From assembly GCA_001692895.1 (NCBI GenBank), contig KV748194.1, positions 1,360,746 through 1,424,745 of the forward strand: 64,000 nt of DNA, given 5' to 3'. Position 1 is the stretch's first letter, and each line of letters starts with the position of its first letter. Of the stretch, positions 32,529-50,022 are shown piece after piece. Source of the DNA: Cenococcum geophilum 1.58. Its lineage: Eukaryota; Ascomycota; Dothideomycetes; Gloniales; Gloniaceae. The notes beneath the pieces were generated by a model, which saw only the letters and a list, made by a program, of their open reading frames with translations, did no database searches and was not told the DNA's origin. Both the position numbers and the translations under genes were made by a program.

Positions 32529-34427
32529 TCACCCACAGACCACGCCCTCCCTAGGCACTTCGACCTCCCTCCCCTCCCTCCCATCTTTTACCCCATCTGG
32601 CCCTTCCTCCACCACTTCGACCTTCTCAACCCTCCCCTCCGGCTCTAACCCCACCGCCCTAACCTCCGCCTCTTCTTTCGCCAACCGCGCCTTCTCCTTC
32701 TTACTCAGCGTCATCGACCCCTTCTCCAGCGCCTCTTTCGGCAACGGCCTGACATACGGCTGGCACACCCACCACGGCCGCTTACACCGCGCCACAGCCG
32801 CCAGCGACGACGTGTACGGATCGACCTCTGCCTCCCCCTCTCCCTCTCCCTGTCCCTCTCCCTCCACCCCAGCACCCGCACCCTCATCTCCAGCCCCATT
32901 CTCATACTCCACCAATCCCACTCTCACCGCCTCCTCCACCAGCCGCAACACGTTCTCAAACGCCGTAATGTCCCCGACGCGGCAGCGCGCCAAGGCGTCG
33001 CGCACGTTGTGGTGCCGCGAGACGAGCGAGCGCAGCAGGTGGAAGAGGTGCGCCTGCATAGCGGCCAAGTTGGGGCTGCTGACCCTCTGCAGCCTCTTGT
33101 CCGCCCTGCTCCGCTTCTGCTTCTTGGCGGGGGGTTCGGCGGACGCGGGGGATTCCGGGCGGGGGCGCGCGGGCGCGTCTCCGGGCAGTCCCGGCGAGTT
33201 GGGGGGGTCTGGGTCTGGGTCTGGGACGGAGACGGGGATGGCGCCGGGGGTCGGGTCCGAGGGCAGGAAGAGCGGCGCCCGCGCGGGCGGCGCGACGTCC
33301 AGGACGTACGTGTATACGATGTCCATGTACCGACGTATGACTGCGTCGACCCTGAACCCGCCCTTCCCGTCGCGCCCACGCCAGTACTCGCGCCCTTCGT
33401 CCCCCCTCGGCACCGGGTCCGCGAAGATGGTCGGGTCGGACAGATTGCCCTCGGCGCTCATGACACCGTCCGCGCCCGTCGCCTCCAGACAGGCGTCGAT
33501 GTCGCCCCGCTGCAGGATGTTCCCGTTCGCGAAGATGACCGTTTCGGGCGGGAGGTTGTCGCGCAGATACCGCAGCACGCTCCAGTCCGCCAGCCCCGTG
33601 TTATGCCCCTTTTGCTCGCGCCGTCGCCCATGCACCGTGATAATGCTCGCGCCCGCCTCCAGGACCATCCGCGCATACGCCAGGCTCTTCTCCTTGGTCT
33701 CCAGAATCCGCATCTTCGCGGTAACCGGGACGTCCAGCTCCGCATGCAGCGTGCCGATCATGGATGAAATTAACCCCCAGTCCTCCTGCAGAAACGCCCC
33801 GTAGTGCCCGCGCCGCGCGATCCCCTGCGGGCAGCCGAGATTCAGGTCGATGGCGTCGCAGAAGGGCTGGACGAGGCGCGCGGCCGCGAGCAGGTCCGCG
33901 GGGGTGTTCGAGCAGAACTGCACGAAGAGCGGGCGGTCGAGCGCCGGGTTGCCGTCTAGATAGCGGTCCGCGGCGGCAGGGGGGATCTGTGGCATGTGGG
34001 GGGAGGCGTCTGGGGGCGGCGAGGGCAGTGCGGTCTTGAGAGGCTGGAAGTGCGAGGCGCGGTAAGGGGGGGTGTCGGCGAACATGCGCGAGTGGAACAT
34101 GGGCGTGTAGGTTAGGAGGGACTTGGAGCGGGTCGGCGGGAGGAAGGAGCGCGTGAGCATGCGCCAGGCCTGGTTTTAGGGTGTCGTTAAGCTGGGGATT
34201 CTTATATCTAGGAATTTTTTTTATACTTCGGTGGGGGAGTTGATGGGACGTACGAACTCTGACTGGTCTACCATGGGCGCAAGGATGAATTTTGGACTCC
34301 CGAGACTCTCGTAGAATGTTCGGCCGTGTAGCTTTGCCTTTTGGGCTGGCTTTGACGAGGCTGCTCCATTGCTGTTCCCAAGAGGGGGTGGAGTTGGGAC
34401 CGCGGGTGCGGCGTCGGAGGTGCTCAT
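32529..34427 (-). CDS. DUS1: tRNA-dihydrouridine synthase, Dus1 type
   Basis: Flavin enzyme that reduces uridine to dihydrouridine in the D-loop of tRNAs (Dus1 acts at positions 16/17). Two exons are inferred: 34427-34254 and 34169-32529. The 84-nt intron (34253-34170, GTACGT...CCAG) joins APMVDQSEF to AWRMLTR, which restores the conserved N-terminal motif. Product about 604 residues. Seen are PMVDQSE (51-57), the catalytic Cys in DLNLGCPQG (about Cys171), AKMRI, THGRRREQKG-type substrate loop (VHGRRREQKGHNTG), ANGNI and GADGVMSAEGNL (FMN phosphate site). It is longer than yeast Dus1 because of a Pro-rich insertion after the first strand and a Ser/Glu-rich C-terminus. A 508-codon open frame on the other strand is a GC-rich shadow. 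Confidence 0.92.
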
Positions 34428-39547: not shown

Positions 39548-42043
39548 ATGTCAGCTCTTCCCACCGAGACGGCTACGCCAAAGGCTGCACCTCTTCAGCC
39601 TCTTCCGGAGGTTGATCCTCTGACCCCGGCGCAATGGAAGACACTCCTAGCCATTACCGACGCCGTTATACCATCGATTCAGCCCTTCACTAAGGCCAAT
39701 CCAAGCTTAGAGCTGGCCATCACGGATAATGGCTACTCCACAGCCTTGAACACGTTGAAAGGGCTCGCCCCACAGGGGACGGACGATGCAGTTGTAACGG
39801 CTTACCTGAAGGAAAATGCGTCATCGGACCCTGCATTCCAACAGACGCTTTACCGTCTGTTCGGGTTTTACATGCCGCAAAGTACCAAGAAGGGACTGAC
39901 TTTGGTCCTGAACATTCTCAAGTAAGCCAGGATCGTTTCGCTGACTACTCTACACTAGCTGTTCGCAAGTCTTTGAGATCCATATATCCCAGCTACTAGT
40001 CATGAATCTCTATTCAAAATCTAAAAAAAATGCAATGAGTGTTCCACCATCTCAGTGTCGATCAAGCATGTCTTCTGTAACAACCACATGACTCAACACT
40101 AACACGCAATTCAGTAATCGTGCTGGATCGTTGGTGATGACAGGATACACAACCCCGATTTCGGAGCAGCCAACTCACATCCGCGAGGCCATTGTCCAAA
40201 GCTGGCTACAGCAAGGCTGCCACTGCTTCGACAGCTCTATCGGTCATTGACGATGCTCTCTAAGCAAACCTGGCTAAAAGTCAGCCCAACTCTCCCTCGT
40301 GTGCTCGGCTATCCGCGGGTTCCAGTTGGCATGACTCCAGGCAAAGGATTCGATTACGAGTTCATTCAGGTCCCACCAGGAAGCGGTGCGGAGACCATTG
40401 AGACAGATGTAGTCATTATCGGTAGTGGGTGCGGTGGAGGAGTCGGCGCAAAGAACCTCTCGGAAGCTGGACACCGAGTGCTTGTTGTTGAGAGGTCGTA
40501 TCACTGGACTCCGGAACATTTTCCCATGACAGAGACAGGCGCTTCCAACCATTTGTTCATGAATGGAGCTTTCATATCTTGTATGGCCTTTTCTATAAAC
40601 ATCATTTACACTAACATCGGCTAACATTGACCAGCGGATGACACCACCGTGAGCGTGGTAGCAGGGCAGGCTTGGGGTGGTGGAGGCACGGTCAATTGGT
40701 CCGCATCTCTTCAAACCCAAGGCTACGTTCGCAAAGAATGGGCGGAACGAGGTCTCCCTTTCTTCACATCAGCAGAATTCCAGACGTGTCTGGACCGCGT
40801 GTGTGATCGCATGGGCGTATCAGCTGACTACGTCAAGCAAAACTACACAAACAAGGTCCTTTTAGAAGGCGCAAGGAAGCTCGGCTGGACCAATAGGCCC
40901 GTACCGCAAAACACAGGAGGCAAACAGCACTACTGTGGCCACTGCACACTCGGCTGCGGATCGTGTGAGAAACAGGGACCTGTGGTTTCATTCCTTCCAG
41001 ACGCAGCCCGAAGCGGTGCCAAATTCATCGAGGGGTTTAGCGCACAAGAAATCCTATTCGAAATGAAAAATGGGAAGAAAACAGCAGTTGGTGTGAAGGG
41101 CGTTTGGGCTTCTCGCGACGTAAACGGAGGCGTTGCCGGGCCTTCAACGACGAAGCGGGATGTCCTGATTCGCGCAAAGAGGGTTATTGTATCTGCTGGC
41201 ACGATGCAGGGCCCGTTGCTTCTCCTCCGCTCCGGCGTCAAGAATTACCACATCGGGCGGAACCTCCACTTGCATCCCGTGTCGCTAGTTGGAGCCATCC
41301 ACAAGGAAGAAGTCAAACCCTGGGAAGGTGCGATTCTGACAGCAATCGTCAGCGAGTACGAGAACCTAGACGGGAATGGCCACGGAATCAAGCTGGAAGC
41401 GACAAACATGATCCCATCATCCTGGCTCATCTGGCTGCCGTGGAAAGGCGGACTCGACTACAAGGTCTCGGCAGCACGAATGAAGCACATGGTCGGATAC
41501 ATCTCGATCTCGCGCGACCGCGACACCGGACAGGTCTATCCCGACCCCGTTGACGGCCGCGTCCGACTCAAATACCACCCGTCGGCCTTTGACAAACGCC
41601 ACATCCTGGAAGGCGTTGTCGCACTCGCCAAGATCCAGTATGTTGCTGGCGCGACCGAGATCTTCACCGTCATCCCAGGCGTGTCAACTTTTGTTCGCGA
41701 CATCAATCCCGCCGACGATGTGGACGGCATCAACGACGTGCGGTTCAACGCATGGCTAAATGAGATCAGGAACACAGGCTTCCCATCCCCAGAGTCCATG
41801 TTTGTGTCGGCCCACCAGATGGGCACGTGCCGGATGAGCTCGAGCGCTAAGACAGGCGTTGTGGACCCGACTGGCAAGGTATGGGGCACAGAGGGGTTAT
41901 TTATAGCAGACGCGAGCGTGTTTCCCAGCGCGAGCGGGGTGAATCCTATGGTCACGAACATGGCGATTTCAGATTGGATATCGAGGAATATTGGACGAGA
42001 GCTCCAGAGGGAGAGTGTGGTGCAGGAGGGTGCAAAACTGTAG
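39548..42043 (+). pseudogene. Long-chain fatty alcohol oxidase (GMC family) with a single frameshift
   Basis: FAD enzyme oxidising long-chain fatty alcohols to aldehydes in the alkane/fatty alcohol pathway. Three exons: 39548-39921, 40115-40580, 40635-42043. Introns of 193 nt (GTAAGC, branch CACTAAC) and 54 nt (GTATGG, branch GGCTAAC) fit the family. Exons total 2249 nt, one short of a multiple of three: in exon 2 the frame runs to REAIVQSW, and the next family-like segment (TARLPLLRQLYRSLT) is in another frame, so one base is missing near 40206. Otherwise about 749 residues, a normal length. Seen: FAD loop DVVIIGSGCGGG, GQAWGGGGTVNW, and HQMGTCRM with the active-site His (about residue 674). 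The C-terminus AKL is a peroxisomal PTS1-type signal. The lesion may be real or a base-calling error. Confidence 0.85.
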
Positions 42044-42837: not shown

Positions 42838-44055
42838 TCAAGGATGATAGAATAGGTCCATTGCAAGCAACCTTTTGCCAGCAAGCTGGTCCGGGTCCGC
42901 ATGTTGACCAAACCCAACCCACCAGGTCCGGAAAGCGGCGGCCAGTTCTCCGTCGGACTGGATGATAACAGTTTCGTCTCGGTCGATGTATTTCAACTTA
43001 TGGGGTACAACATCTTGGGGATATAGCACTTCCACTTCGATGAGGTGTCGTATATCCTCGAAGCGAATTGTTGGCTGTACTTCCAGGGCTCGAAAACCGT
43101 ATATGGCAGAATAATGCACCTGGATTTTGATCAATGATGGCAAGGGGAGTGGAAGGACAAATAAGGGAGCTAGAGCAATCAGCTTCAGCAATTCAGAGTT
43201 TCTCGCCCTCAATCGAGTATATTCCACCATGCCATACGGAGAAATGAAAGGCTATGCGTCTTCGGCCTTCAGCGGATCAGGCTTCTGCGAGGTAGTGCCA
43301 GGCTTTGATCATAATTCTAGTAGCAGAGCCATAATATCGTCCCCTTCGTCCACATCGTCGTCGCTGGAAAAGTACTCTTGAGCGTGCAAGTCAGAGACGG
43401 GCATTCCGCCAGCGTTTCTGAAGAAAGGAGAGGACAGCGTTGCAAGTTCTTTCCATGCTTGTCTTTGGGCATCAATCTGGCTTTTCCATTTCCTCATCAT
43501 CTCGTCTGTTGTGAAACGTATAGCCAGAAATTTGAATTTTGCTGCTTCACCCAGAAATATTTGTAAATCATAATGTCCTGCACATTGTGCCGTCAGATTA
43601 AATCTTTAAAATATCTAAACCAAAGCTGAGATCAAGGGACATACCGGAGGATCTTCTCAGCGACATAGTCCCCGTGATTCTTTTAATCCACACAACACCG
43701 CATAAGCGAAGCGTCGAACTCACTGTTCCGCCGGAAAGCTTCTTGCGAATCCTACCTGGAAATTCCTCTAACAAGAAGAATAGAATGAACTCAAAAAGAT
43801 AAATTTTGTACTATTCGGAAACTCGGTTATTAGTCCTCGCATTCGAACGCGCAGTGTAACGCAAAATTATACCACATCACCGGCAAAAATTGAATAAGCA
43901 TGTACGGATATAATTCTCTTACCTCGCGCGGGCGTCCGTCGACATCTTTTTGCACTTGGAAAGTGCCATGAAGTATTAGTTTTCCGTAGTCTCCAAGACA
44001 CATGCCTTTCCTATCCTTTACTCGGCGCACAAAATCGGTCGCTACGTCTCCGAGC

Positions 44056-44947
44056 CAGTGATGCAAATGGACCGGTTCTATTTTGGATTGGTTCGGTTTT
44101 CCAATATTCAAATCTTGAACCGGTTCGGAGCTTTGATTGGTCTAATTTGGATCGGTTTTGGAGCTTGACGCGAACCGGTTCAACCAGTAAAACCAGATCT
44201 AGAGGTAGTATAGAGCCTAAGTAGTGAGCCTAAGGAGCCGAGCCTATTGAATCTGCTATACACTTACCAAGCTGTATATCAAGGATTGTTCTGTAGTGCA
44301 GCGACACCCCGATTTGATCCGCTGAAGCCTTGTAGATAATCCTCATCGCGTCACTCTCGCGTCGCTCTCGTCGCGTCGCTCTTATCGCGTCGCCCTTATC
44401 TTGGCACTCTTACTGTCGCCCTTATTGCTGCCCTCATTGTTTAATACCGCCAATCCTATGGAGAGCTCCGTCACTGCGACCGGCCGAACAACGCGTGGAG
44501 GTGGTAGTAGTCATGCTAGTAGTAGCCGTGCTACGGGCAAGGCTCCTGCTCAAAAGCGCATTAGTAAGGTCTCTGGTAGTAGAAAGCAGAAGCACCAGAA
44601 GATGGGGACAAATGCAGTTGAGCCAGAATCTCTCACCTGCTTCTCAACACCATGCCAAGACTAGTGATAGTAAATCCGCGCCTCTTATCAATTCGTTAAC
44701 CATTAAACTAGCCGCTAACGTCGCTCAAGCTAGATAGGTCCTAAACCGTTTTATATCTCTATTTAACTACTCCTTCCCTCCCTTAAACTCTTCTACTACT
44801 TTATATAGTACATTATACTCAAATATATACTATTTTATCTGGTTTATCTGGTTGAACCGGTTCTAGAACCGGTTTGGAGCTTTAATTTGATTTTTGGATC
44901 GGTTTGAAGGCAAATTCTAGAACCGGTCCAAACCGGTTACATCACTG
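44056..44947. mobile_element. Non-autonomous hAT element inside the kinase-Cdc24 gene
   Basis: 892 bp with inverted ends CAGTGATG, flanked by the perfect 8-bp duplication CTCCGAGC (44048-44055 and 44948-44955). Inside both ends are repeated ACCGGTT palindromes (for example near 44,070, 44,118, 44,175, 44,855, 44,870, 44,920), a typical subterminal binding-site pattern for hAT transposases. Two overlapping open frames of about 85 codons (44401-44737), Ser/Gly/Lys-rich, have no transposase motif, so the element cannot move itself. It has little RIP damage and is therefore young. Confidence 0.88.
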
Positions 44948-45653
44948 CTCCGAGCTTCTCTCGGGCTACTACTAGGCTAGCATGACCAATAATTTCCGAT
45001 AACGCCTCTATTGCTACCGTCATTTCGTCGTTCTCATTTGTGCCAAGCTCCAGAGTGCTGCGAAATTGCTGTATACGGTAAGCACGAGAATGAAATAGCT
45101 GATCAAAGAGTTTTGCACCATTAGAAATGACCGATATCTCACTAAGCGTTGCACTGGCCGCAATAGAGAGGATATTACATGGCTATGTTCTGTGATTGAT
45201 TCGAAGAGCTTCACTGGTGCTCCTGCTGTTGTAAAATATTTATCGAGATTTCGTGTCGCCACCCCTACATTACCTTTTGAATCATGCAGGAAAGGTAACA
45301 ATGCACCACCGAACGCTTGGCCTTGAAAATAGAAAATCTGTGTCCAATTCCGCCGATGTTCTGGAAGAGCATACATTTGCTCGATCCGGAGTAACAGGCG
45401 ATATTGAAATTCCAAGGTTGAGCGTAGCCCAAACAAAATTCCACGGGCGTCGTCATTGAGGATTATGTCTCTTTTCTTAGCAATTTCTTTGAACGAATAT
45501 AAAACCTCGAGATCCTGGACGTATTCGCGTTCGCTGCTGACAAACTCGTCAACGATGCGCACTCTTTCCGAGCTATTTCGGACATGAGGATTCCCATTGC
45601 TAGAACCAGTTTCTTTATGTATCCGCAGAATCGATTTCGATGCTATAACATTG

Positions 45654-45872
45654 ACATGTTCAGGCCTTAGAACGCTTGCTTGATCTAAGAGGTTGAGGAT
45701 ATGATCGACCAACTTAAAGACCTGTAACATGTTCAGGCCTTAGAACGCTTGCTTGATCTAAGAGGTTGAGGATATGATCGACCAACTTAAAGACCTGTAA
45801 CATGTTCAGGCCTTAGAACGCTTGCTTGATCTAAGAGGTTGAGGATATGATCGACCAACTTAAAGACCTGTA
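45654..45872. repeat. 73-bp segment in three tandem copies at an intron-exon boundary
   Basis: Three essentially identical copies of period 73 (starts 45654, 45727, 45800). Each copy holds the first codons of exon 3 (VFKLVDHILNLL...), and each junction recreates TTACAG|GTC on the minus strand. Three candidate 3' splice sites thus precede exon starts at 45867, 45794 and 45721. 73 is not a multiple of three, so only the most distal site (45721; intron 45955-45722) keeps the frame into the DH domain. Confidence 0.9.
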
Positions 45873-48027
45873 AATAAATGTATTAGTTCAGGTCGCTTCG
45901 GCCGTTTCACGCTTTCGTCAACAGTAAAGAGGAGCATACAAGAAAAAGTGCTCACCTTCTTGAATCCTACCACATCATCATTAAACAGGTCGTTGGGGCA
46001 AAAGTATAGAAAATCATCAATCTTGGGATCTTTCTCGCAAGCGTCTAAGAACGAGTCGACGGCCCATGCTCTCTGCTCCTCCGCCAGATCTGGTTTTATA
46101 GCTATCTGACGAGCAGGGTCTAGAGCGTTATACAGCCTTACCAAGGGAATCCCTTGTCTGAAAATCTGCCAGAGCGAAGTAACTGGGCCCAGTGTTGTCT
46201 TGATGTTTGAGATGCTTTGGTTATTGTCTTCCCACCAATGATCTAATCCGGGAACTCTACTGAGTCGCTCCTGAAGAGCAGCGCACCGATGATACAGAGA
46301 TACAACTCTCCTGCTATTCATCGTCCTGCCATTTTTTTCCATCCCCTCAGTCTCCTTAACAAGACTCTCGGCGGAGAACGGATCCGGGCCAGTACCCAAA
46401 AGGCAGCATGGGGTGGGAGCTTCGAGCCAGGAAACCACAGTATCTGCAGAGGGACGGCGAAGTGGGTTGGCATCGATCATTTGCCAAATCCTATCCCGTA
46501 ACGGGCTGAGTTCGATGAAATGAGGACTACAATTATTAAGCCCATTAATCTCCCGCAGCCACTGGGTCACAAGCGGAATGTTTCCATGATACGATCTGGG
46601 CTGTTCCTCATCAGCCGAAAGAACTGCTAGCAAGTCTTTTCGCTTTGATTCATTATCTGATTCAGCAAAGACGGCTAACATTTCTGTGAAAACGCATCCA
46701 AGAGAGAAAATGTCGGCGCTTAGTCCTCGCTTGCGTTGGTCAACAACTTCCGGAGCAGCGTATAACGGTGTAAAGGAGGTGGGCGAATCAGTTTCAGCAT
46801 CGGCGGCGCGCTTGTACGAACGCGTAATTCCAAAGTCGGCGATATAGATCTTATAAGGACCTTGAGAAGAAAGCGAGTTGTAGCGTAAATCCTTTATAAG
46901 TAAGTTCTTCGGTTTAATATCCATATGCTTCGTAGCATTGCTATGAAGAAAGTTGATGGCCCGACTAAGGCACGAAAAGAAGGTTACCATCGCCCGTAAC
47001 TTTGGCTGAGTTTCCTCCTTGTGAAGATAGTTGGTCGAGCCAGGGGATTCGGCAAGTATAGACTCCATAAACGTCTCCAAATTGAATTCAGCTGCAGGAT
47101 ATAACAGGATAGCAAGGTCTTGCTTAAATGTATAAGTTCCAATAACCTGAACTATATGAGAATGCTGAGACCGTTTTAGTTGTTGTACCTCTCTAATTGC
47201 ATCAGTACGTTTCATTCGACGGTTGCAATATATGGTTTTTCGGGCGAGAAGAAGTCTTCTACATCGAACACTTTCAACGAGAGCATATGCTGAGTGTCCT
47301 AAGCGCTCCTCCACTACTAGCAGCTCCGATATCTTGGACGCTTCATTCGGTTGGAACTCGGCATGTTCGCCTCTACCAGACCAGTCTTTCTCGTCCAGAG
47401 GGTCTGGAATTAAATCCTCGGACTTGAGCCAATTATACCATGAACTCCTGCAAGATCTTGTTAGTATTGTACTAATTAGAATTCAATCCTAAAGAGGATA
47501 GTGTTGCACCTTGACAGTGTAGACTCGCGGTTGATGCTACGCTGTCCTGACGTTGCCGTCTCGAAAGTTGCTACGCTACTACGGATACTTCTCGCAGTGA
47601 TATAAGTTGAGCTACTGGATCTTTTGCTTCCCACGGTATGGACGCTAACTGAAGTTAGCCGCTTCAGGTTTCGTTCGTCGGATATGCTGTCGTTCGATAT
47701 CTTCGAGCCCTCTGGGACGATTTCTGCAGCAGCCGAACTAGCAATACGTCCATGCATCGGACGCAATCCGGGCTGGGGTTCTAGCTCAGACGTGCAATCC
47801 GCAGCACTGTTTGCAGCTGGTTCCAACTTCAGAGCTGACCCAATTGTTCCAACCGTTGAAATGCTCTTCCTCCTAATTTCCGGTTCAGGAGGGGTCTGCG
47901 GAACACATAGCTCAATAGACTCGCGTGTAGCCGATGTTCGAGCAGATCTAGACCCTTCTGCGACCCCAGCCTTCTCTTTAACCTGGAATTCCCCCTCAAC
48001 ATGATTCATAGCCATTGTACGTCTCAT

Positions 48028-49164
48028 TATGAGCCGAGGACCAGAGAAGCCTAATGATGTGATAAGAGAGGTCTTGTTCGAGGATATGGTACGAGAGCAG
48101 AGGGGAGAGTATCTTCACGGGGATCGGGTAGTTGAACACAGGGTCTCCCACTACTGCTCGTATTAGCTAATGAATGTACACAATACGATACAGAAATGGA
48201 TTGGCCTACTCGAGCGGCCCAAAATTGAAGAGCAGACCACCGCAGCATCGAAACCAGGACTTAAGAGAGCCAGAAGAGCCCGTCGAAAGTAGTTGTAACA
48301 GGACCAACCCCCGTGAAATGGTAGATGAGGCTCCGAGGCCCACCATCTCTCGTAAGACTTTCTTATGTTGGTCCGTGCTTACATTTTGTTGACATCCAGA
48401 ACGTGATCATTTGATACTTCGGTACTGATGCTAGATCCAATGGACATGGCTGCTCCAACTTGGTCTAAAAGTCCTTTCAGAAACTCCACAAGCGGCAGAG
48501 AAACAAGAAACATATATCCCCTTTCGGCGACCAATTCACATGTCCTTAGAGTCCAGTTGTACTTCTATGTTGTGCTTGTAGCTAAAAATGTATTGGTTGC
48601 TCTTGGTTGCTATTGGCTGCTCTCAAATCAGCCGCTTCGTGCCTGAGGCCGCCAAGTTGGACCCCGAAAAGCCGGGCTAAAATCAGGGTCCAGAAGCTCC
48701 CATGCGGCGACGTCATACCCTTTCAGACCGCCTGACACAACACTACACGCTCTGGCGACAATCCCGCCATCGCCATCCCGCTACCCCGCCATCCCCTCCT
48801 TAGTAGTTCTGTAATAAAAACCCCGGGGTCCAACGGGAACGGCCTAACAGACTTTTCCATCTCATGTGTTTTTCTTGGCTGCAGGGCGTCAGCCCATGTG
48901 GTGTGCCTTGTTAAAATACACCTAATCCACGCCCTTTAATCCTTCAGAGTCTTTTTCCCAACCTACAAACAACACATCCCCACTCGCAGTCTCACAAGGT
49001 GGAGCGCCCTTCGGACTGCTGACGCTACTCCAATAAACTCAAAAAGAAAAAGACTCCGGTCCTACAATAACGACCATCTGAGCGCCCCAGCGCGCTCCTC
49101 AATATAAAACCGAGCACCCACCTCCTCCGCGCTTTGCAACCACAGCTTCCATCTCACCTACATC
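48028..49164. other. Divergent promoter region
   Basis: Lies between the start of the kinase-Cdc24 pseudogene (minus) and the acetyltransferase (plus). Short open frames here lack motifs. Apart from the TATA box listed separately I see no named element. Confidence 0.5.
49103..49109 (+). promoter_or_regulatory. TATA box of the acetyltransferase gene
   Basis: TATAAAA, 56 bp before the ATG at 49165, in a C-rich region. The spacing fits a short 5' leader of about 25-30 nt. Confidence 0.6.
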
Positions 49165-50022
49165 ATGTCCACCGAATTCCTAACCCTCCTCCCACCCCCT
49201 GGCGCCGCCCTCGCCGCCTACAACCGCACCAAACGCTCCGACCAACAACCCGGCTCGATCCCCCAGCTCTTTAAAGACGCAATGTCCGTACGCGAAGCCG
49301 TCTACGTAGAAGAGCAAGGCGTGCCCCTCGCGAACGAGCTTGACGATGACGACGCCCGCAGCTGGCACTGGATCGTATATGCATCCGTCGGCACAACTTC
49401 CACCAGCAGCAGCAGGTCGCCGCCAAAATCCCACACCTGGCACAAAAGGAGAGCGAGCAAGGAGGACCAGGAGGATGCGGACCGCCGCCGCAGCTCAGCC
49501 ACCGCGTCCCGCGTCCCCGTCGGCACAATCCGCCTCATTCCGCCGCCGCACCCACCGAACCCTTACATCACGCACGACCTGCACTCCCTTACAACATCGA
49601 CAACAACAGCAGCAGCAGCAGCAGCACACGACCCGCACCCGGACGCCGACCCCCCCACTCCCGTCCCGCTCCCCACCGAGCCCTTCGTCAAGCTCGGCCG
49701 CCTCGCCACCCTCCCCGCCTACCGCAAACTCGGGCTGTCGCGGCTGCTAATCAACGCGGCGCTCGAATGGGCCGCCGCCAACCCGACGCAGGTACTGCGG
49801 CCGCCGTCGCCGGCGACCTTGGAGGCGGCGCGGCTGGAGGGCCGCGAGGAGGAGGAGCGGTGGCGCGGGTTGGCGATGGTGCATGCCCAGGTTAGTGTCG
49901 AGGGGTTGTGGGCGAGGTTTGGGTTCAGGGAGGAGTTCGAGGGGGTGCCGAAAGAGGGGAGGTGGTGGGAGGAAGGGATTGAGCATTTGGGGATGTGGAG
50001 AAGGTTGAGGGTTAAGGAGTAA
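49165..50022 (+). CDS. GNAT-family N-acetyltransferase
   Basis: Single-exon gene, 285 residues. GNAT enzymes move an acetyl group from acetyl-CoA to an amine; the substrate cannot be told from sequence. Seen: a fungal-type N-terminal part with FKDAMSVREAVYVEEQGVP (start of the fold), the central strand VPVGTIRLIPPP, the acetyl-CoA loop motif FVKLGRLATLPAYRKLGLS (R-x-x-G-x-G/S type) followed by helix LLINAALEWAA, and the last strands VHAQVSVEGLWARFGF. Between strands lies a variable, Ser/Arg- and Ala-rich insertion that includes a CAG triplet run (about 49,605-49,625) coding for alanine. The start fits the TATA box position. Codon use is GC-rich, like DUS1. Confidence 0.85.
   Translation: MSTEFLTLLPPPGAALAAYNRTKRSDQQPGSIPQLFKDAMSVREAVYVEEQGVPLANELDDDDARSWHWIVYASVGTTSTSSSRSPPKSHTWHKRRASKEDQEDADRRRSSATASRVPVGTIRLIPPPHPPNPYITHDLHSLTTSTTTAAAAAAHDPHPDADPPTPVPLPTEPFVKLGRLATLPAYRKLGLSRLLINAALEWAAANPTQVLRPPSPATLEAARLEGREEEERWRGLAMVHAQVSVEGLWARFGFREEFEGVPKEGRWWEEGIEHLGMWRRLRVKE

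Follow-up and report, generated by a model that had tools for sequence, protein, structure and literature searches.

A kinase joined to Cdc24 in two genes of the Cenococcum geophilum 1.58 genome

On the minus strand of a 64,000-nucleotide stretch of the genome of the fungus Cenococcum geophilum 1.58 (contig KV748194.1, positions 1,360,746 to 1,424,745; hereafter the window) lies a gene, at 48027-42838, in which a Ser/Thr kinase appears to run straight into a copy of Cdc24, the fungal exchange factor built of CH, DH, PH and PB1 domains. The locus raises the question of whether kinase and Cdc24 are truly parts of one chain and, if so, what such a chain could do. A sequence-only reading had taken it for a Cdc24 paralogue uniting kinase activity with activation of Cdc42/Rho. 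We conclude that the kinase-Cdc24 fusion is real and old, since the genome contains another gene built in the same way. As to its working, we hold with roughly even confidence that the fusion had one origin, that its docking domains address the kinase to scaffolds, and that exchange is weak or absent.

Two fused genes beside one ordinary Cdc24

The window gene comprises six coding exons and a PB1 block. In exon 2 (45956..47447) kinase, linker and Cdc24 CH domain share one open frame of 498 amino acids (translation of 45953-47446, minus strand); the Pfam family Pkinase matches residues 45-338 (E = 7.4e-31), with the motifs HMDIKPKN, DFG and APE, and the CDC24 calponin (CH) family matches residues 420-498 (E = 4.8e-14; 52.8 bits, cut-off 21.3). 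Ahead of it, exon 1 (47510..48027), open from an ATG, encodes a Ser-rich N-terminal segment whose final ~35 residues resemble, by eye, exon 1 of the second gene described below; it ends in phase 2 at the donor AAG/GTGCAA, followed by a 62-nt intron. The downstream blocks keep the Cdc24 order of DH, PH and PB1. Exon 3 (45119..45721), in frame from the third of three acceptors, carries the first part of DH, aligned with Cdc24 and other DH domains (RhoGEF E = 1e-8 at 45020-45739; 36 bits, cut-off 27.6). The remainder of DH and the start of PH are found in exon 4 (43923..45068), which is interrupted by an insert and is similar to Cdc24 and to the second gene on both sides of it; exon 5 (43645..43810) holds the middle of PH, aligned with Cdc24, and exon 6 (43312..43577) its end and an acidic linker, up to an in-frame stop. 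Because the PH domain is divided among three exons, PH_10 is seen only as three pieces under the curated cut-off (E = 0.16, then 0.0026 in exon 5 and 0.0063 in exon 6). The PB1 domain (42838..43251; E = 4.5e-6; 27.0 bits, cut-off 23.6) lies in the frame of exon 6, with two in-frame stops between; a PDB search with it returned no match at E 1. All these features are on the minus strand.

The introns are GT..AG, two with weak donors (GTGCAA), and their phases are consistent (2/0/0/0/1): the intron ahead of the kinase exon is in phase 2, the three that follow CH, split DH and fall near the start of PH are in phase 0, and the one further into PH is in phase 1. Apart from the first, every one of these is also present in the genome's ordinary Cdc24, giving four positions in common. 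The coordinates, strand, domain order and fitting splice phases of the sequence-only reading are thus borne out, with two Pfam matches in one frame followed by DH, PH and PB1. A single-sequence AlphaFold model of the kinase-CH exon, with a mean predicted local distance difference test score of 33.4, was not usable.

The window's own genome (177.2 Mb in 162 contigs, and the single fungal genome searched) holds three matches to the Cdc24 CH family. The strongest, at 109 bits, is ordinary Cdc24 on contig C2; the window gene scores 58 bits, and the remaining match, at 59 bits, is another fused gene, on contig C23. Since in two of these three the CH domain shares its open frame with a kinase, of one subfamily in both cases, the joining of kinase and CH is not a matter of chance. 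The C23 gene has kinase and CH within one exon and the same junction as the window gene, whose exon 2 is 49% identical to it over residues 1-495. Four intron positions agree between the two genes, namely the phase 2 one preceding the kinase and those that follow CH, split DH and fall near the start of PH. The later PH intron, present in the window gene and in ordinary Cdc24, is without a counterpart in the C23 gene, where the PH domain is clear (63.4 bits).

The second gene bears directly on a prosaic explanation, that a kinase gene and an adjacent Cdc24 paralogue have been misread as one. No stop separates the domains at either locus, and the same junction inside one open frame occurs twice, which rules this explanation out in practice and leaves it very little probability. 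At sequence level, separate kinase and Cdc24 genes are found at neither locus. Of 121 candidate matches to the kinase exon, 86 were scored and listed, and apart from its own CH domain none of these 86 is adjacent to ordinary Cdc24. The proposal of a Cdc24 paralogue that carries a kinase within one chain is supported.

When a tree is built from the best 20 kinase matches, the two fused kinases fall into one clade (support 95/98) inside a six-member subfamily (97/93). Its other members sit on C102, C7, C25 and C15, away from all three Cdc24 CH matches. Joining C102 to one or the other fused kinase gives a poorer fit (approximately unbiased test, p-AU 0.037 and 0.034). The subfamily includes a decayed kinase, broken by several in-frame stops, at C15:460301-461233 (our locus L019). 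On the other side of the junction, likeness to ordinary Cdc24 starts at residue 369 of exon 2, corresponding to Cdc24 residue 86 (35% identity, 133 columns) and ~50 residues ahead of the CH model, so that the kinase replaced only the N-terminal tail of Cdc24 (~first 86 residues). Introns at Cdc24 positions survive in the fused genes, so the Cdc24 half derives from a genomic duplicate; a retrocopy, which was also considered, is ruled out by the same introns. With the fused kinases forming a clade, one fusion followed by duplication is the simplest course, and we infer a single origin: a kinase of this subfamily, which also has stand-alone members, would have been placed once ahead of a duplicate of the Cdc24 gene.

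A constrained kinase on a fast-changing Cdc24

The sequence-only reading regarded the degenerate Gly-rich loop as a sign that kinase activity may have been lost or altered. This is not supported. The second Gly of the GxGxxG loop is absent in all six subfamily members, stand-alone kinases included, so that the odd loop is a family trait, and decay of the window gene is ruled out as its cause. The Lys, Glu, HxD, DFG and APE residues, motifs with established functional roles in protein kinases, are kept in both fused copies, and the missing Gly would not in itself exclude activity. Between the copies the kinase is 59% identical (345 codons; bootstrap range 54-64%), and differences at codon positions 1/2/3 number 116/77/238, a pattern indicating that constraint on the kinase lasted long past the duplication. 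Its best sequence matches in the PDB, CDK3 (E = 4e-14) and DAPK1 (E = 2e-12), express a weak likeness, at superfamily level.

The Cdc24 halves have behaved differently. Identity between the fused copies is 28% in CH (89 codons), 28% in the first DH exon (DH1; 187) and 27% in PB1 (89), and a separate piecewise comparison gives 24 to 35%; the window copy is 37%, 33% and 30% identical to ordinary Cdc24 in CH, DH1 and PB1 respectively. In an unrooted three-way comparison of window copy, C23 copy and ordinary Cdc24, ordinary Cdc24 has the shortest three-point branches of nonsynonymous divergence (dN) for CH, DH1, the first PH piece and PB1 (0.14-0.27, against 0.33-0.58 for the fused copies); for the two parts of the second DH exon the three-point sums are 0.17 and 0.21 for Cdc24 and 0.37-0.58 for the fused copies. 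Identities and branches together show that the Cdc24 halves changed faster than ordinary Cdc24 and faster than their own kinases.

The DH domain is altered in both fused copies. Over the first DH exon, Cdc24 scores 96 bits against RhoGEF, the C23 copy 60 and the window copy 36. The asparagine equivalent by alignment to Tiam1 N1232, a position of general catalytic weight in DH domains, is Ser in the window copy and Thr in C23; across eight aligned RhoGEF loci of this genome the position is Asn in four, Asp in one and Ser/Thr in three. A simulation study reports a bond between Tiam1 N1232 and Rac1 R66 (PMC7884829). The LLKPFQRLAKYPLLLK block of Cdc24 and the CR3 block are likewise changed in both fused copies. 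The DH first-region glutamate is kept in both, and the Arg that stands for the CR3 lysine is also found in the C16a and C21 RhoGEFs. The sequence suggests reduced exchange on Cdc42/Rac, and it is the exchange factor, rather than the kinase Gly-loop, that is eroded.

These observations weigh on the possibility that the product is a bifunctional signalling protein, in which kinase and Cdc42/Rac exchange factor would both be active and form a self-contained polarity module. Retention of all Cdc24 domains in order, the common intron positions, the conserved glutamate and the occurrence of the CR3 substitution in other RhoGEFs would all suit such a protein. The lowered DH scores of both copies, the altered CR3 block, the Thr/Ser substitution, and a DH1 divergence far above that of the kinase argue against it, and we consider it rather unlikely. 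Of the earlier proposal, the joining of the kinase to Cdc24 stands; the part concerning Cdc42/Rho activation is weakened.

The company kept by related kinases gives circumstantial support to a possible recognition or fusion role, which the sequence-only reading had also raised. A scan of the wider family, covering 10 open frames of 18 fetched (fused pair aside; frames cut at introns and locus ends), found the kinase alone in six of the 10 and otherwise joined in one open frame to HET (L022, C79:729566), WD40 (L023, C13:1615141) or EH (L020, C1:3743870), or with a weak TPR match (C40). HET and WD40 are named, in a passage of PMC5023957, among domains tied to self/non-self recognition in expanded families of another fungus. 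The fusion might then be a recognition-type kinase with an integrated Cdc24 decoy: the Cdc24-like half would serve as bait for, or sensor of, attack directed at the polarity machinery or incompatibility arising there, and the kinase would be the output. The modularity of the family (one HET, one WD40 and one EH among the 10 frames) agrees with this. An integrated decoy would be expected to show such a rapidly evolving, modified version of a core protein attached to a conserved output domain, and for fungal NLRs integrated decoys have already been suggested (PMC12258605). However, NACHT/NB-ARC was found neither in eight window pieces (E up to 1) nor in four C23 pieces (E up to 0.1; exon 1 left out), and relaxed constraint accounts for the fast change equally well, so that we judge a decoy improbable. 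Still less probable, in our estimate, is its fuller form, in which a kinase from a recognition expansion, outside the NLR framework, would carry an exchange-dead, fast-evolving Cdc24 as sensor or decoy of the polarity/NADPH-oxidase complex and be lost or kept by strain through mobile-element insertions.

Lesions in both fused copies

The sequence-only reading also held that the window gene is broken, and it is. Exon 4 is interrupted by an 892-bp mobile-element-like insert (44056..44947, minus strand) flanked by perfect 8-bp target duplications, GCTCGGAG on either side. Both its ends begin CAGTGATG, with 18 of the first 30 end positions alike, and the genome holds at least 48 matching stretches, several of which are parts of one copy. 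Matches to its ends lie ~10-11 kb apart on C33 (1384925-1396422) and C32 (1143858-1155345) and ~2-3 kb apart on C12 and C28, and with ends set so far apart the insert looks like an internally deleted form of larger elements. Duplications of 8 bp fit hAT-type elements, and we take the insert to be hAT-like by target-site size. Between PH and PB1 the gene has two in-frame stops in one frame, unless a short intron removes both.

The third lesion is an exact triplication of a 73-bp unit over the splice acceptor and the start of the DH exon (45654..45873; Tandem Repeats Finder, 3.0 copies, 100%). Each copy contains a TACAG/GTC acceptor, the unit length is no multiple of 3, and the third acceptor leads into the DH frame; the array may supply alternative acceptors, the third one frame-keeping. 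Upstream of ordinary Cdc24 there are three near-exact tandem copies (99% matches) of a 74-bp unit (locus L005, 6172-6394); both arrays are triplications of ~73-74 bp, and their units differ.

The C23 copy is hit in a similar manner, by a 450-bp insert at the extreme end of the CH exon, with identical 8-bp duplications and 27 of 30 end positions alike; the genome holds 75 matching stretches, some of them inverted self-matches. An insert in an exon, perfect 8-bp target duplications and a repeated family are therefore common to both fused copies. Past the insert, the remaining C23 exons have open frames up to the stop codon. Exon 1 of this copy has to start at a later ATG, since translation from the first one tried is halted by a stop. 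As assembled, neither copy should yield a full-length product without unusual splicing.

Such damage is what would be expected of a dying gene family, a once-working fusion now without constraint in this lineage and without present function: inserts interrupt both copies, and the window copy also carries the stops and the triplication. Apart from the lesions, however, both copies keep open frames throughout their kinase-CH, DH, PH and PB1 blocks, the codon-position differences of the kinase speak for long constraint after duplication, and intact alleles may exist in other strains. On balance we find it improbable that the family is simply dying. Two paralogues, both hit by mobile elements, would suit presence/absence studies across strains.

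Around the window gene lie a GMC oxidoreductase (40631-42043), a GNAT acetyltransferase (49108-50022) and, further off, a dihydrouridine synthase (32529-34175). The G+C content of 2-kb blocks over 1-64000 ranges from 0.27 to 0.63, with the fusion in a G+C-richer part, and an Rfam scan of the window gave no match at gathering scores.

Proposed docking of the kinase, and known systems

The reading that we prefer, at the even confidence given above, is that the Cdc24 docking domains serve to address the kinase. Such a protein would have the order kinase-CH-DH-PH-PB1. Through an acidic OPCA surface its PB1 would dock on Bem1/NoxR-type scaffolds, PH and CH would help to keep it at polarity or NADPH-oxidase sites, the kinase would phosphorylate partners there, and the drifted DH would have weak or no nucleotide exchange. 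We infer docking, phosphorylation and loss of exchange. The genome contains a candidate PB1 partner in a TPR-PB1 gene on C14, of NoxR type by its architecture. A second candidate is an SH3-SH3-PX gene on C37, of Bem1 type following the architecture given in a passage of PMC4010548. In Epichloe, parts of PMC5785021 report that NoxR, BemA and Cdc24 interact and that Cdc24 is the probable common exchange factor for Cdc42 and RacA. These partners and interactions together favour a kinase addressed to scaffolds by docking domains.

Several points weigh against this reading. The C23 PB1 scores 18.0 bits, under the Pfam cut-off of 23.6, and acidic OPCA positions are, by eye, partly lost in the window PB1, so docking may be weak; no PB1 was detected at the Bem1-type gene in the genome PB1 search. 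The p-AU values amount to moderate support for the pairing of the fused kinases. In five of six three-way pieces the Cdc24 half of either fused gene resembles ordinary Cdc24 more closely than it does its fused counterpart (in the sixth, DH2a, 33-44 codons, the window copy is marginally nearer to C23 by identity), as would also be expected from two separate fusions. Synonymous sites are saturated in most pieces, so that selection could not be measured and no dN/dS ratio is used; the rate differences could reflect relaxation before death instead of a docking role. Finally, the C21 RhoGEF (L010, C21:1315998) also has Ser at the DH asparagine, whose loss is therefore not exclusive to the fusions.

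Cdc24 is normally a single polarity regulator, and a kinase-headed second Cdc24 would tie phosphorylation directly to the Bem1/NoxR scaffold; should exchange activity be gone, it would be a pseudo-GEF serving as an address tag. Passages of PMC5785021 describe Cdc24 as essential in several filamentous fungi. Among titles, abstract openings and passages of the open-licence literature we found no kinase-Cdc24 fusion, and the main text of a survey of fungal kinase domains (PMC2838846) contains no Cdc24, PB1, DH-domain, guanine-nucleotide or RhoGEF terms. For three fungi, a passage of PMC2121648 names SH3-SH3-PX-PB1, CDC24-RhoGEF-PB1 and CBS-PB1 proteins besides NoxR, and PMC7051960 gives four fungal PB1 families across 12 proteomes.

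The fusion would be a fungal case of kinase and exchange factor in one chain, an arrangement otherwise familiar from the animal RhoGEFs Trio and Kalirin, in which a kinase accompanies DH-PH. These are not known to have a Cdc24 CH or PB1, and we assume that they and the fungal fusion are of independent origin. Trio differs further in its C-terminal kinase of calmodulin-kinase type, its spectrin repeats and its SH3 domains, and kinase activity of Trio was not yet reported according to the passages of PMC9372627. In Dictyostelium, RhoGEF domains are found on two kinases, a LISK and a unique member of the STE group, for which the relevant passages of PMC1420674 mention no CH-PB1 set. Closer to hand, the stand-alone kinase on C102 shares 51% identity over residues 1-307, the type of Gly-loop and HMDIKPKN with the fused kinase, but its open frame stops after the kinase and no Cdc24 CH match is found there. 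The nearest relative in build is Cdc24 itself, with the same four domains in the same order and four intron positions in common; the fused genes differ from it in having a kinase in place of approximately the first 86 residues, a changed DH asparagine and CR3, and faster evolution, and they stand as two copies beside one ordinary Cdc24 in the genome.

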